A DNA stretch of 56,479 nt, taken from assembly GCA_017483185.1 (NCBI GenBank), contig JAFULM010000018.1, positions 1 to 56,479 of the forward strand, in the 5' to 3' direction. Of the stretch, positions 1,868 through 56,128 are shown piece after piece. Source of the stretch: Prevotella sp. GTDB lineage: Bacteria; Bacteroidota; Bacteroidia; Bacteroidales; Bacteroidaceae. The notes beneath the pieces are model-generated. The model saw only the letters and a list, made by a program, of their open reading frames with translations. It made no database searches and was not told the DNA's origin. How positions within the stretch are numbered: the stretch's first letter is position 1; each line of letters starts with the position of its first letter. The position numbers and the translations under genes were made by a program.

Positions 1868-2050
1868 GTATTGAGCTTTTAGCTCTTGTTCTCTCTTTAT
1901 CGAATACCGCCAACATTCGCTGTATGAGGACAAGTTGACTGAAAGTTCACGCTGATAAGGCGTGGGCTATTTTGTCGCTTGTTATACAGCAGGTCACTTG
2001 GCGGTAACCAGATAAAGAAGCAAGCGTACAGAATGGTTACACGCCTTTTT
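1868..2050 (+). ncRNA. Rod-like structured RNA or leader, copy A
   Basis: A small hairpin (GAGC 1873-1876 with GCTC 1882-1885) is followed by a long rod. Its pairs are CTTG 1885-1888/CAAG 2021-2024, CTTTATC 1895-1901/GATAAAG 2011-2017, ACCGCCAA 1906-1913/TTGGCGGT 1998-2005, CTGTAT/ATACAG, ACAAG/CTTGT, and an apical CACGC/GCGTG stem at 1948-1964. The CTTG arm overlaps the first hairpin by one base, C1885. The RNA ends near five T residues at 2046-2050. Its 3' rod strand can pair instead in a terminator: GGCGGTAACC 2000-2009 with GGTTAC-a-CGCC 2035-2045. Copy B at 18050-18225 keeps the fold with changed bases. The next start codon lies 18 bases downstream. It may be a leader regulator or an independent small RNA; the described Bacteroidales RNA classes should be tested. 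Confidence 0.65.
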
Positions 2051-2068
2051 CATAAACTTAATATTATT

Positions 2069-2872
2069 ATGATTAAACTGAAATCTATTTGATCGCAATT
2101 GCTGTTTCTGCCTGTTGTGGCTTTGTTCGCGGTGTCATGCGGAAGTGACGATGATGACGACGGAATGATAAAGAACGAGAGTGGAAGCAAAATGGTGAAG
2201 TTAACCGTAAACGGCGTTTCTTTCAACATGATTCGTGTGGATGGTGGCACGTTTCAGATGGGAGCGACAACAGAGCAGACCATGAGCGGAACCAAGATTG
2301 ATGACCATGAGTTTCCCGTACACAAGGTGAAACTTGACACTTATTATCTGGCTGAGACAGAGGTGACGAAAGAATTGTATAATGCCGTTATGGGTGGGGA
2401 AAACTCTTCTGATCTCTATCATCCGGAATATGGTGAATGGGATTATTTTGATAAGTTCATAAGGAAGTTGAACGAGTTGACAGGACGTAAATTCCGTTTT
2501 CCTACCGAAGCCGAATGGGAATTTGCCGCACGTGGTGGAAATAAGTCGAAAGGCAATATCTATCCTGGCTCCAACTACTGCGTGACTGTCGGATGGTATT
2601 ACTGTAATTCCGGCGAGGGCTATCTTGCGGAAAGCAACTGGAATTGGTGGACCATGAAAGGTAACAAGTGTGATACCCATGTTGTGGCGACAGCAATGCC
2701 CAACGAACTCGGATTCTATGACATGGGTGGCAATATTGACATAAAGGTTGGGGTGTGTAGGAAGAATATTTCTTTTGTTCTTCCTTGCTCCGCCTTTTGT
2801 GCTACTTTTCTCATTCCCCCACTATTCACATTTATTCCTCCGCACATTTCTCCCTCGAAAGATAAAGTTTAA
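2069..2872 (+). pseudogene. Broken formylglycine-enzyme-like (SUMF1/FGE) lipoprotein
   Basis: An ATG at 2069 starts MIKLKSI and then meets TGA at 2090. The same frame continues as a lipoprotein signal ending in a lipobox before Cys (FAVSC followed by GSDDDDD). An FGE-sulfatase (SUMF1) fold segment follows: VDGGTFQMGATTEQ, then ETEVTKELYNAVMGG, FPTEAEWEFAARGG and ELGFYDMGGN. Family members continue into a WEW..D motif and RVLRGGSW. Here the similarity stops at about 2737 and an unrelated tail runs to the stop at 2872. The C-terminal part of the domain is therefore missing and the N-terminus carries an in-frame stop. A TTG at 2099 could restart translation, but the fold would still be incomplete. 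It lies directly behind structured RNA copy A. Confidence 0.75.
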
Positions 2873-17503: not shown

Positions 17504-17980
17504 TTATTTAACGCGCTCAAACGTATATTTCGCGATTTGATAATCTCCTTCTTCATACATGCCACCGACGACAGTTATCCGGTTGCCAGTAAATCCGGTA
17601 ATTGTATACGACGGAGCCCAGTATTCATCATCATAAAAGTTGAGGGTCAATATGCCTTTGTTTAACGTCCAGTTTCCTTCTTCCTTTTCTCCATCCGAAT
17701 CGAGTGTGTTGAAGCGGCCATCGCTGAATATAGTGACAACGCTTTCAACGTCTTCATTTTCTTCTTTCTCTACTCGGCCATTATATTTTTCCTCGAAATA
17801 AGAACTGATACAACGCCATGTGCCGACAAGTTGCGAAGCCTGTACATTAGTTACGGGCGTTACGTCTATAATTTGTCCGCTACCGTTTTCATCGTCATCG
17901 TCGTCACTTGAACAACTCGCGAAAGCCAAAGGCAATGCTACGAGCATGGCCATCATAATTAAATTGAAATACTTTTTCAT
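17504..17980 (-). CDS. Lipocalin-like lipoprotein
   Basis: A 158-residue lipoprotein. The signal MKKYFNLIMMAMLVALPL ends in the lipobox FASC, followed by SSDDDDDENG. The mature part contains LVGTWRCISSYFEEK, then VVTIFSDGRFNTLDSDG, GNWTLNKGILTLNF and a final KYTFERVK. That order matches the lipocalin-like domains of many small Bacteroidales lipoproteins (G-W motif, strand-rich, about 130 residues). The ligand is unknown. The acidic DDDDD linker resembles that of the broken FGE lipoprotein at 2069, and both genes follow a copy of the same structured RNA. Confidence 0.8.
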   Translation of the reverse strand: MKKYFNLIMMAMLVALPLAFASCSSDDDDDENGSGQIIDVTPVTNVQASQLVGTWRCISSYFEEKYNGRVEKEENEDVESVVTIFSDGRFNTLDSDGEKEEGNWTLNKGILTLNFYDDEYWAPSYTITGFTGNRITVVGGMYEEGDYQIAKYTFERVK

Positions 17981-18049
17981 TTCCTTTTTGATTTTAATTT
18001 ATTGTCTTTGAATGTTATTATTGAGTCAGTCCCATCCTGAAAGTCAGAC

Positions 18050-18225
18050 AATAAAAAAGCGCGGACTAATCACTTTGTCTGTCTTCTTGAGGTATCGCCA
18101 AACACCCTAAACATTCAAACAAGTAAAAGCCCACGCCATAGGCGTGAGCATCAACTTTTACTCTTGAATGTTTCTCTATTAATTTGGCGATTTTCAAGAA
18201 AACAAGAATAAAGCTAACGCTTCTT
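18050..18225 (-). ncRNA. Rod-like structured RNA or leader, copy B
   Basis: On the minus strand a small hairpin AAGC/GCTT (plus positions 18211-18222) precedes a rod. Pairs, given as plus positions, are TTCTTGA 18084-18090/TCAAGAA 18194-18200, ATCGCCAA 18094-18101/TTGGCGAT 18184-18191, AAACATTCAA 18109-18118/TTGAATGTTT 18164-18173, AGTAAAAG/CTTTTACT and the apical CACGCC/GGCGTG at 18132-18146. It ends at six T residues on the minus strand (18053-18058). Copy A has the same helices in the same order with different bases. A promoter lies 60-70 bases upstream, and the lipoprotein ATG is about 70 bases past the T run. Confidence 0.65.
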
Positions 18226-18285
18226 TATCTTTATGTCTTTATGATTCTTATGCTACATAGGCAATAACTTTTTAATTAACAACTG

Positions 18286-18316
18286 CAAAGATATGCAGAA
18301 ACTGTTTAACAGCAAA
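18286..18316 (-). promoter_or_regulatory. Promoter of RNA copy B and the lipoprotein
   Basis: On the minus strand TTTG, 19 bases, TATCTTTG (plus positions 18286-18293) is a full consensus promoter. The upstream TTTG is itself the end of another TATCTTTG at 18313-18320. Confidence 0.75.
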
Positions 18317-54301: not shown

Positions 54302-56128
54302 ATCGAGTAGACGGCTCCGCCAGTAACTGACGGAGTGCGCCTCTCACACCACCGAGCGTACGGGTCACGTACTCGGCGGTTCGCAAAGAGATGGGTTAAG
54401 TTGTAAATGTAATTCAGTTAAGGAAACATATCCTCTTTTCTTCAAGCGTTGTAAAGTAATGGTAGTGCCTAGAATAGGACTTTGTGCTATTGCCCAACCG
54501 CCTTTCCGTGTTCTGCTCCAAGCGTAGGCATGGTCTTGGTCTACACCTAATCGAATCAGGTTTTTCCTTTTCCTTTCGGGTTTTTTCCAATGATGCCAAA
54601 TGCAATAGCGCAGTCGGTTGCGAAGCCAACCATCTAAATCTCGTAATTTGCCCAAAATACTCGTGCCTTGGAAATAGTTCAACCATCCGCGTTGCACTTC
54701 TTTTATCTTGGCAATACGCTCTTCAAATGTGGCTGGTGTGGTTTTTCGGGTGATTGTTTTAAGTCGTTCTTTTAGTTTCTTCCATGCTTTTTCCGATACA
54801 ATAAGTTGGTATTGATTTTTACTTCCTTTCTCGTACGTAGGTACGAATCCGAAACCCAAAATTGTGAAGTGGATTGGTTTTCTGATACCACTCTTTTCTT
54901 CATTTATAGTTAATTTGAGTTTGTTTTTCAAAAACTTTTCAATTACCACTCTTGTTGCCTTGGCTTGATTGTGGCTTTTGCAATAAATACTAAAATCATC
55001 CGCATAACGTACAAATTTGTGTCCTCTTCGAGTCATTTCCTTATCCAGTTGATGTAGTAAAATGTTCGACAATAATGGACTTAAAGGGCTTCCTTGCGGA
55101 ACGCCTTTTCTTCTCTTTCGTAGCTTTCCGTTGATTTTAATAGGTGCTCTGAGCCATTTGCGTATGAGTTGCATGGTAGCTTTGCATTTCACTTTTTGAT
55201 AGATTAAATTCAGTAATAAACAGTGGTCAACTTCATCAAAGAAGTTTTTCAGGTCAATATCCACAATGTGGTTTAATCCTGAATGGATGTAATCCCGAGA
55301 TTGTCCAACGGCTTGTCGGGCATTCTTGTGAGGTCTAAATCCATAGCTGTAATTACTAAATTCGGGCTCAAAAAGTGGTGCAATAGTTTGTGCTAAGGCT
55401 TGTTGCAACACACGTTCTGTAGTGGTGGGAACACCCAATAATCGAGTTTTCCCATTTCCTTTCGGAATTTCAATACCTAAAATGGGTTGTACTTGATAGT
55501 TGCCTTGTTTGATTGCTTCAATCAGTTGTAGTTTCTTTTCAGAAAACACCTTGCGGAGCTCTCTTATAGAAACACCATCAACACCCGCACTACCTTTATT
55601 GGCAATCACGTGTTCCAATGCTCTTTGAAGATTAAACGGATGTACTACTCTTGTTATCATTTTAGTTGTTTTTAACCTGTTTTCGTTAAGTAGGGCTACT
55701 ATGTGTTCCGTTACCTATTGAAAACCTCTTTACGTTCAGTCCTTCCTTGTTTGTGAGACCTATGCGGTATCTATTCGCACCTCGTTTGCCCTCAAGTACT
55801 ATGACCTCTGCTGACTTCTTGGATTGATTAACTCGTAATCGCCAAGACCTCCCCTGGTAAATGCTTTTTCCTTCCGTCTATCGCCGGTACATCTACATAA
55901 CAATAATCTGATTTAATAGCATGTTCAGAACACTGTTTTGGACTTCGTATTGCTGTGGATACTCATCCTTATTGTTATGCCTCTTATGTACTTTCTGTTC
56001 GTCGGTACAGACTTTTGCAGTTCTGCTTCCTTCAGTGCATACCTCACGATAAACCACCTTGCAGCTTGCTAACGATTCGGGGTTTCAATCCGCTCGTAAG
56101 GGACTTGCACCCTCTGGAAAAATAACAC
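54302..56128 (-). mobile_element. Group II intron
   Basis: On the minus strand it runs from a GTGTTATTTTT start (about 56128) and an early GGGTGCAAGTCCC segment to a CTACTCGAT 3' end (54302-54310). A domain V-like hairpin lies just past the ORF: ACCGCCGAG/CTCGGTGGT with a two-base 3' bulge and inner TACG/CGTA. A CTCCG/CGGAG domain VI follows. The RT lies in domain IV. The element is AT-richer than its surroundings. Boundaries are good to a few bases at the 3' end and less certain at the 5' end. Confidence 0.7.
54365..55660 (-). CDS. ltrA: Group II intron reverse transcriptase/maturase
   Basis: A 431-residue intron-encoded protein. RT motifs include SAGVDGVSIRELRK, IPKGNGKTRLLGVPTTTERVLQQA, YSYGFRPHKNARQAV, VDIDLKNFFDEVDHCLLL, QGSPLSPLLSNI and the catalytic YADDFSIYC. 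A maturase X region (GWLNYFQG, LDGWLRNRLRY) follows. No HNH endonuclease is visible at the C-terminus, so the protein probably supports splicing and insertion without second-strand cleavage by its own nuclease. The length is normal and the frame is intact. Confidence 0.93.
   Translation of the reverse strand: MITRVVHPFNLQRALEHVIANKGSAGVDGVSIRELRKVFSEKKLQLIEAIKQGNYQVQPILGIEIPKGNGKTRLLGVPTTTERVLQQALAQTIAPLFEPEFSNYSYGFRPHKNARQAVGQSRDYIHSGLNHIVDIDLKNFFDEVDHCLLLNLIYQKVKCKATMQLIRKWLRAPIKINGKLRKRRKGVPQGSPLSPLLSNILLHQLDKEMTRRGHKFVRYADDFSIYCKSHNQAKATRVVIEKFLKNKLKLTINEEKSGIRKPIHFTILGFGFVPTYEKGSKNQYQLIVSEKAWKKLKERLKTITRKTTPATFEERIAKIKEVQRGWLNYFQGTSILGKLRDLDGWLRNRLRYCIWHHWKKPERKRKNLIRLGVDQDHAYAWSRTRKGGWAIAQSPILGTTITLQRLKKRGYVSLTELHLQLNPSLCEPPST

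Follow-up and report, generated by a model that had tools for sequence, protein, structure and literature searches.

The question raised by this locus is what kind of element a pair of folded stretches in one Prevotella contig represents. A sequence-only reading of the window (the whole stretch of DNA that was analysed, 56,479 nucleotides) described two diverged copies of one structured RNA, each ending in a T run ahead of a lipoprotein gene, and proposed either a leader shared by a set of lipoprotein genes or a multi-copy small RNA. The same ordered helices with differing bases were found in the sequence of both copies, and none of 200 shuffles folded equally well for copy A (z -5.7) or for copy B (z -8.2). 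The structural features are as follows.

1870-2050, plus strand: copy A, structured RNA and predicted leader of subfamily A
1873-1885, plus strand: 5′ hairpin of copy A, GAGC-UUUUA-GCUC (GAGC/GCTC at 1873-1876/1882-1885; direct reading, alignment-predicted pairs)
1895-1901/2011-2017, plus strand: lower rod of copy A, CTTTATC/GATAAAG (direct reading)
1906-1913/1998-2005, plus strand: conserved mid-rod helix of copy A, ACCGCCAA/TTGGCGGT (direct reading, alignment-predicted pairs)
1948-1952/1960-1964, plus strand: apex of copy A, CACGC/GCGTG (direct reading)
2046-2050, plus strand: T run of copy A (direct reading)
18053-18224, minus strand: copy B, structured RNA and predicted leader of subfamily B

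Relatives of each copy were collected by BLAST from 150 genomes of the genus (58 genomes for copy B, 45 for copy A), 30 relatives of each were aligned, and covariance models were built, R1 from the relatives of B and R2 from those of A. Two separate models were used because a joint MAFFT alignment of the subfamilies misaligned the 5′ and 3′ parts. Copy A is recognised by R2, of which it is itself a part, at E 8.9e-34 and by the independent R1 at E 1.5e-6, and copy B by R1, of which it is likewise a part, at E 4.4e-30 and by the independent R2 at E 1.3e-8; R1 also matches an A-type copy on contig C19 of the window's genome (E 5.4e-11). Since the models built from each copy recognise the other, copies A and B are divergent subfamilies of one structured RNA.

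The membership of both as a conserved structured RNA is carried by compensatory base changes across the structure. RNAalifold predicted 52 pairs in the 30 A-type sequences, 17 with two-sided compensation, and 33 pairs in the 30 B-type sequences, 20 of them so compensated. In a hand-drawn structure for the 30 B relatives 93.6% of the cells were paired, and two-sided compensated cells numbered 123 against 38.9 in shuffles, a count reached in none of 500. A larger alignment of 113 rows (110 distinct, 11 weak reverse-strand matches included) was then fitted to the model; over its distinct rows 95.8% of the cells pair, compared with 36-47% in slid controls, and two-sided change occurs in 40 of the 43 pairs (744 cells against 181 shuffled, 0/500). 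Whole helices are replaced and still paired, as in UCGCCAAA/UUUGGCGA, CUGGUAAA/UUUACCAG and UUGGGGAA/UUCCCCAA. The compensatory change from which the sequence-only reading had argued for an RNA thus extends to a larger alignment, and the further homologues on which it had also made its claim depend were found by the covariance search it proposed, run with one model for each subfamily and with the downstream genes recorded.

The comparison with Rfam, which it had also proposed, was made with Rfam 15 and gave no family at the gathering score at either window copy or in 20 relatives. Copy A had no match up to E 10; copy B had eight within that limit, each well short of its gathering score, with IsrM at the top (16.3 bits, E 0.021, gathering 376). 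Ten distant relatives searched up to E 0.1 gave no match overlapping the RNA, the sole match (L161, 243-390) lying off it. 6S RNA is usually a single-copy rod that mimics an open promoter; it was rejected as an identity for this family, which is multi-copy and gave no 6S match in the Rfam scans. Text searches, with most subscription journals and supplements outside their scope, showed no description of the family among the papers listed, and it is apparently undescribed. A survey of candidate structured RNAs in the human microbiome lists 508 candidates just upstream of genes (PMC8040213), which might contain fragments of the family, although the main-text passages of that paper name no such family. 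It is close to certain that the RNA forms a structured, many-copy family that Rfam 15 lacks.

The distribution of the family was surveyed at successive taxonomic levels. At E 1e-3 it was found by R1 in 108 and by R2 in 80 of the 150 genus genomes. With R1 at E 1e-4, 159 of 251 genomes at family level carried it, spread over 22 of 30 genera; at order level the figures were 88 of 247 genomes and 68 of 174 genera, and at phylum level 31 of 296 genomes and 15 of 140 genera. Three of the phylum-level genomes lie outside the class, one with a weak match at 2.4e-5. The window's genome has at least six copies, five detected via R1 and one more (contig C59) via R2, and another genome has at least 21; the earlier suggestion of a multi-copy RNA is borne out. 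For these two genomes 150 candidates were scored; in the large searches 5-18 were scored per genome, and copies per genome are lower bounds. A pattern scan of named records gave at least 120 stretches, of which 80 were examined and 70 matched R1 at E 1e-3, the confirmed records including Paraprevotella clara (YIT 11840, copy L214), Alistipes, Odoribacter, Sunxiuqinia and Pedobacter mendelii. It is from such names, with the lineage looked up for P. clara, that the phylum is taken to be Bacteroidota. No R1 match was obtained for five records whose labels place them elsewhere (L221, L224, L230, L255, L271); a match in a MAG labelled Heliobacteriaceae (L216) is taken for contamination.

For the counts that follow, 66 of 68 pattern-scan matches of at least 59 bits were kept (L244, which is the L180 site, and a second L220 site being dropped), together with 99 of 113 genome-search matches, from which the 11 weak reverse-strand rows, L177 and two L194 rows were removed. 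The resulting 165 B-type loci still include five identical pairs (L131/L214, L136/L232, L145/L260, L161/L250 and L164/L277). In one further locus (L370; G471:C66, 1252-1416 and 2376-2541) tandem leader-gene units were seen, whose signal-peptide genes are closely similar.

The genes behind the two window copies are these.

2069-2872, plus strand: lipoprotein gene downstream of copy A (ORF reading; lipobox AVSC-GSDDDDD)
17504-17980, minus strand: gene downstream of copy B, a 158-aa surface-type lipoprotein (lipobox FASC, then SSDDDDD)

Both products have a lipobox followed by an acidic run, as described before. The copy A gene, whose product we take to have a formylglycine-enzyme-like domain, is probably decayed: from its first ATG (2069) an in-frame TGA at 2090-2092 follows after 7 codons, within the signal peptide, the same frame then reopens into the lipoprotein, for which TTG at 2099 is a possible alternative start, and the domain seems shortened, breaking off into unrelated sequence. 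The genes behind all six copies in the window's genome have, by eye, an export-type N-terminus, that of copy A being interrupted.

For the family at large, the downstream gene was defined as one whose start lies between 75 nt before and 250 nt after the RNA end. Among 195 loci, 14 had too short a flank and 12 had no ORF, and after removal of repeats 164 genes remained. By a heuristic, 132 of these have a signal peptide (97) or a lipobox (35), against 116 of 470 control ORFs (Fisher p 1e-36); the controls are mechanical calls from the same loci, and any non-genes among them would overstate the contrast. About a fifth of the downstream genes are not exported by this heuristic. The start codon lies on the same strand at a steady distance from the RNA end (quartiles 33, 53 and 67 nt). 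The idea of a leader for lipoprotein genes stands as regards the lipoproteins that are present; the set itself is wider, consisting of exported proteins generally, with exceptions. The cargo is diverse: a Pfam scan covering 118 of the 164 proteins, many of which end at the edge of the fetched stretch, gave 103 families, the largest being LRR_5 (BspA-type LRR) with 18. Action in cis on exported-protein genes is likely.

Two further kinds of product were seen at a few loci. Behind L010, L160, L234 and L290 the first gene encodes a small HTH-like protein of 68-84 aa (...SV.WLA......N...), which could be cargo or regulator, and the gene for a protein of 279-311 aa, rich in cysteine and zinc-ribbon-like, starts about 0.7 kb behind both L362 (contig C19 of the window's genome) and L036.

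The 3′ end of the RNA was analysed for pairings that compete with the rod, and the strands concerned are listed below.

2000-2009, plus strand: rod 3′ strand of copy A, GGCGGUAACC, with alternative partner 2035-2045 (terminator-like hairpin before the U run)
2035-2050, plus strand: GGUUACACGCC followed by UUUUU in copy A (direct reading, folding)
18063-18069, minus strand: UUAGUCC of copy B, 5′ strand of the proposed U-run-flanking helix (partner 18026-18032)
18026-18032, minus strand: GGACUGA of copy B, 3′ strand of the proposed U-run-flanking helix (partner 18063-18069)

In subfamily A the rod 3′ strand GGCGGUAACC pairs with GGUUxCxCGCC just 5′ of the U run. In copy A (the L038 row) this alternative hairpin reaches -14.4 kcal/mol (z -3.8), over 30 A-type segments the mean z is -2.6, and the pairing scores -14.6 kcal/mol against -6.6 for shuffled sequence. 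The own partner is little better than that of other members (-14.57 vs -14.14), and for five of ten variants the own partner is better than the average of the others, for the remaining five worse. Positions 2040-2047 of copy A are complementary also to the apex arm at 1957-1964. A candidate terminator that would compete with another fold is present in subfamily A and is not local in subfamily B, where a local terminator was rejected because the 32 nt before the U run fold like shuffles (mean z -0.06, 165 leaders). The earlier statement that both copies end at their T runs accordingly keeps a plausible terminator for A and finds no transcript-end evidence in that B segment.

In subfamily B a different arrangement was found. 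The AGUCC that precedes the U run has a complement, GGACU, a few tens of nucleotides downstream; the own partner beats the mean of the others' in 111 of 158 leaders (p 1.5e-10), and there are changes on both strands, as in CAAACCCA/UGGGUUUG and CAAGUCCA/UGGACUUG. The region containing this helix folds no better than control stretches do (mean z -0.45 vs -0.48 and -0.72), so the case for the flanking helix is one of partner matching, not folding energy. The AGUCC-CACG segment is complementary in addition to the apex arm CGUGGGCU (-11.2 vs -6.1 shuffled; 137 of 165 leaders), with a slight gain for the own partner (-11.24 vs -10.81). A pairing of the 5′ AAAGCGU with the 3′ ACGCUUUU was rejected: the two are complementary, yet own and swapped partners score equally (-7.13, -7.12). 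As the pairings around the U run are mutually exclusive, we propose a switch between them.

Sequence conservation at the apex and in the CCACGC-UUUU segment exceeds the needs of a stable rod, and the apex with its alternative partners could suggest a riboswitch binding a small molecule common to surface-protein genes. The cargo has no common pathway, as the Pfam scan indicates, and the rod has few conserved unpaired bases, unlike a binding pocket; a riboswitch is very unlikely.

The sequence upstream of the rod was analysed for promoter and start signals, which in copy B read as follows.

18286-18293, minus strand: promoter -7 element TATCTTTG of the Bacteroidota type TAnnTTTG (motif reading)
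18253-18258, minus strand: minimal ORF ATG-TAG in the context TTGCCT, 27 nt after TTTG

About half of the B-type leaders have such a minimal ORF, an ATG preceded by TGCCT with a stop within 0-2 codons, in forms such as ATG-TAA, ATG-TAG, ATG-ACA-TAA, ATG-GGC-TAA and ATG-AAC-GAA-TAA. An ATG occurs in the searched window of 126 of the 165 B-type leaders (39 are without), and 91 of these have a TGCCT-like context (at least 3 of 5 letters). An in-frame stop within two codons follows 88 of the 91. For the two remaining frames the numbers are 6 and 23, and for control ATGs taken 100-400 nt upstream 99 of 759, so the immediate stop is beyond chance. Three of the identical pairs (L131/L214, L136/L232, L145/L260) fall in the 91-member set, and without the three repeats the count is 85 of 88. 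An early stop within three codons follows 32% of ATGs in shuffled upstream sequence and 19 of 35 ATGs in poor context. Where a stop triplet occurs within 12 nt, the first lies 0, 3 or 6 nt past the ATG in 84 of 90 cases, a phase not expected of a DNA-binding motif; a palindrome was also ruled out as the cause of the ATG motif, TATG-N-CATA being present in just 21 of 91. In a strict form (TGCCT with 4 of 5 letters, stop within two codons; 200 nt searched for B-type and 320 nt for A-type) the minimal ORF occurs in 84 of 163 B-type leaders (shuffles 0.5%) and 11 of 29 A-type leaders (shuffles 0.9%). Copy A is without it, its nearest promoter-preceded candidate being ATG-TGT-AAC-ATT-TAA, 191 nt upstream of the hairpin. 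Where present, the minimal ORF is likely to be a real start-stop element.

TAnnTTTG was found 15-55 nt upstream of 54 of 90 B-type minimal ORFs (shuffles 2.8%), its end lying a median of 27 nt (IQR 26-30) before the ATG, and the rod begins a median of about 34 nt after the minimal ORF. Transcription starts about 7 nt downstream of this element. The ATG would therefore lie about 20 nt into the transcript, the usual place of a Bacteroides start codon; a passage in PMC7366714 gives 23 nt for most 5′ UTRs of B. thetaiotaomicron.

Some A-type leaders have other upstream sequences. GGAGG, which is Shine-Dalgarno-like, was seen upstream of 8 of 32 leaders examined, two of them in the window's genome, where AGGAGGT stands at about -190 in two A copies. 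In several (e.g. L050, L056, L059, L061-L063 and L067) an additional conserved stretch resembling a hairpin lies around AGCGTTTC, some 30-60 nt before the GAGC hairpin.

Among 29 class-level relatives the strict minimal ORF was found in none; an early-stop ATG occurs in 7, none reading TGCCT, and in 20 the RNA is preceded by a promoter-like TAnnTTTG whose first base lies 26-33 nt before it. In one group of these (L332, L334, L336, L340-L342, L359) the RNA starts about 20 nt after the promoter-like motif and the gene, TonB-receptor-type by eye, stands 200-300 nt on. A promoter so close upstream and a gene so far away would suit the other proposal of the sequence-only reading, a multi-copy small RNA, taken here as a stand-alone one ending at the U run, with the downstream genes as bystanders or partly read through. 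The steady-distance, same-strand link to exported genes speaks against it, as do the missing hairpin directly before the B-type U run and the partner sequences on both sides of that run, and we consider a small RNA distinctly unlikely.

A translational leader without a terminator would account for other parts of the data. The minimal ORF would load and release a ribosome, and the rod would permit its bypass, or that of its 30S subunit, to the gene start or stabilise the 5′ end, whether as a bacterial counterpart of the shunt by a short uORF and long hairpin or as a reinitiation or stabilising leader. The minimal ORF at the usual place of a first start codon, about 34 nt before the rod, agrees with this, and so do a rod that is stable while much of its sequence varies, a gene about 50 nt on and a B subfamily lacking a terminator. 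Leader genes that raise expression by short-distance reinitiation have been proposed for bacteria including Bacteroidetes, but the distances given in PMC4833913 are about 10 nt and here the distance is about 250 nt. The conservation of the apex and of CCACGC-UUUU exceeds what a stable rod needs, and many members are without the strict ORF. Bacterial ribosomes can, moreover, bind inside messages, so a shunt would be unneeded. On balance a purely translational leader is rather unlikely in either variant.

The leaders were further compared for their portability. Among 144 pairs of near-identical leaders (at least 85% identity), which are not independent of one another, 133 precede unrelated proteins, and one pair is 100% identical. 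In 20 hand-picked pairs the shared sequence stops no more than 13 nt from the U run in 14 cases and 26-60 nt past it in 6; it starts no more than 75 nt from the RNA in 15. For L025/L032 it spans 1.5 kb upstream and breaks 12 nt past the U run; at this locus, in two species, the genes that separate the leader from conserved HTH and serine-recombinase-like genes (so named by eye) differ. It would so appear that either leader and promoter travel or the genes behind them are swapped, and recombination at the repeats is the simplest way.

With a homologous block that often ends at the U run, the unit was also weighed as a MITE or other mobile element; a folded DNA recombination site or miniature mobile element selected as DNA would account for the gene exchange. 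At one locus (L365/L366, genomes G007 and G119) differing genes lie between the RNA and an HTH gene with two serine-recombinase-like genes, which is cargo exchange right behind the RNA. Recombinase neighbours were rejected as a rule: by a crude motif such genes were seen near 2 of the 62 named loci (over 3.5 kb) and near 4 of the 99 others (flanks of about 1.5 kb). Copy B had no plasmid or phage match by blastn. An integron attC site was rejected likewise, the copies being upstream of genes and a crude tyrosine-recombinase motif being seen in the neighbourhood of 2 of 161 loci, whose flanks were mostly 1.5 kb. The copies stand upstream, on the gene's strand and at the distance of a start codon, both the promoter and the in-frame minimal ORF are features of gene expression, and ordinary recombination at repeats can explain the exchange; an element selected as DNA is most improbable. 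Elsewhere in the window two Rfam matches to group II intron domains were noted (55739-56053, minus strand), beside a 431-aa ORF (54365-55660, minus strand).

The leader class is strongly supported, and the mechanism that we infer for it, with somewhat less than an even chance of being right, is that of a cis-acting 5′ leader, a portable expression module controlled by re-pairing around the U run. The module would consist of a housekeeping-type promoter, often a minimal ORF some 20 nt into the predicted transcript, a rod of about 165 nt and the U run, with transcription continuing to the start codon, mostly of an exported protein, about 50 nt on. In subfamily A, GGCGGUAACC would leave the rod and pair with GGUUxCxCGCC to form an intrinsic terminator, the rod acting as antiterminator; because the rod forms before the terminator is transcribed, termination would need a rod-opening factor. 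In subfamily B, AGUCC-CACG would pair alternatively with the apex arm or with GGACU just before the gene. Ribosome traffic at a translated minimal ORF would likely be the input or the setting of the system. Against re-pairing count the many leaders without a strict ORF, the B subfamily without a local terminator and the fifth of the cargo that is not exported. Put more broadly, and regarded as doubtful, this may be a phylum-wide, translation-linked portable module, in which a peptide-less start-stop ORF at the usual place of the first start codon sets ribosome traffic on a rod with a re-pairing U-run end and governs exchanged genes for surface and secreted proteins. We know of no counterpart to a general exported-protein regulon of such a kind in Bacteroidota.

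Among known systems, attenuators and minigenes such as the axe-txe minigene are alike in having a tiny ORF before a structured leader, and the A-type terminator-like alternative is a further likeness. Leader-peptide and minigene regulation differs in that here the ORF is 1-3 codons long, shows no amino-acid conservation and stands before many unrelated genes, which makes nascent-peptide action or a codon-specific stall unlikely. No conserved short peptide or codon run was found in the minimal ORFs (0-2 codons in 88 of 91, with varying sequences), and a leader-peptide attenuator was rejected for this reason. An mRNA leader of B. thetaiotaomicron that ties colonisation to dietary sugars, as cited in a passage of PMC7366714, is alike in the control of an individual Bacteroidales gene by a long 5′ leader; it concerns one gene, and the likeness is drawn from its description.

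Bacteroidota have a major place in gut, rumen and mouth, where their surface proteins shape diet use and host contact. A many-copy RNA ahead of surface-protein genes would be a common expression handle overlooked by annotation. The minimal ORF makes it testable whether start-stop ORFs are used on a large scale as regulatory elements in bacteria, and the portability of the leader points to a way of swapping surface-gene repertoires while keeping their control.
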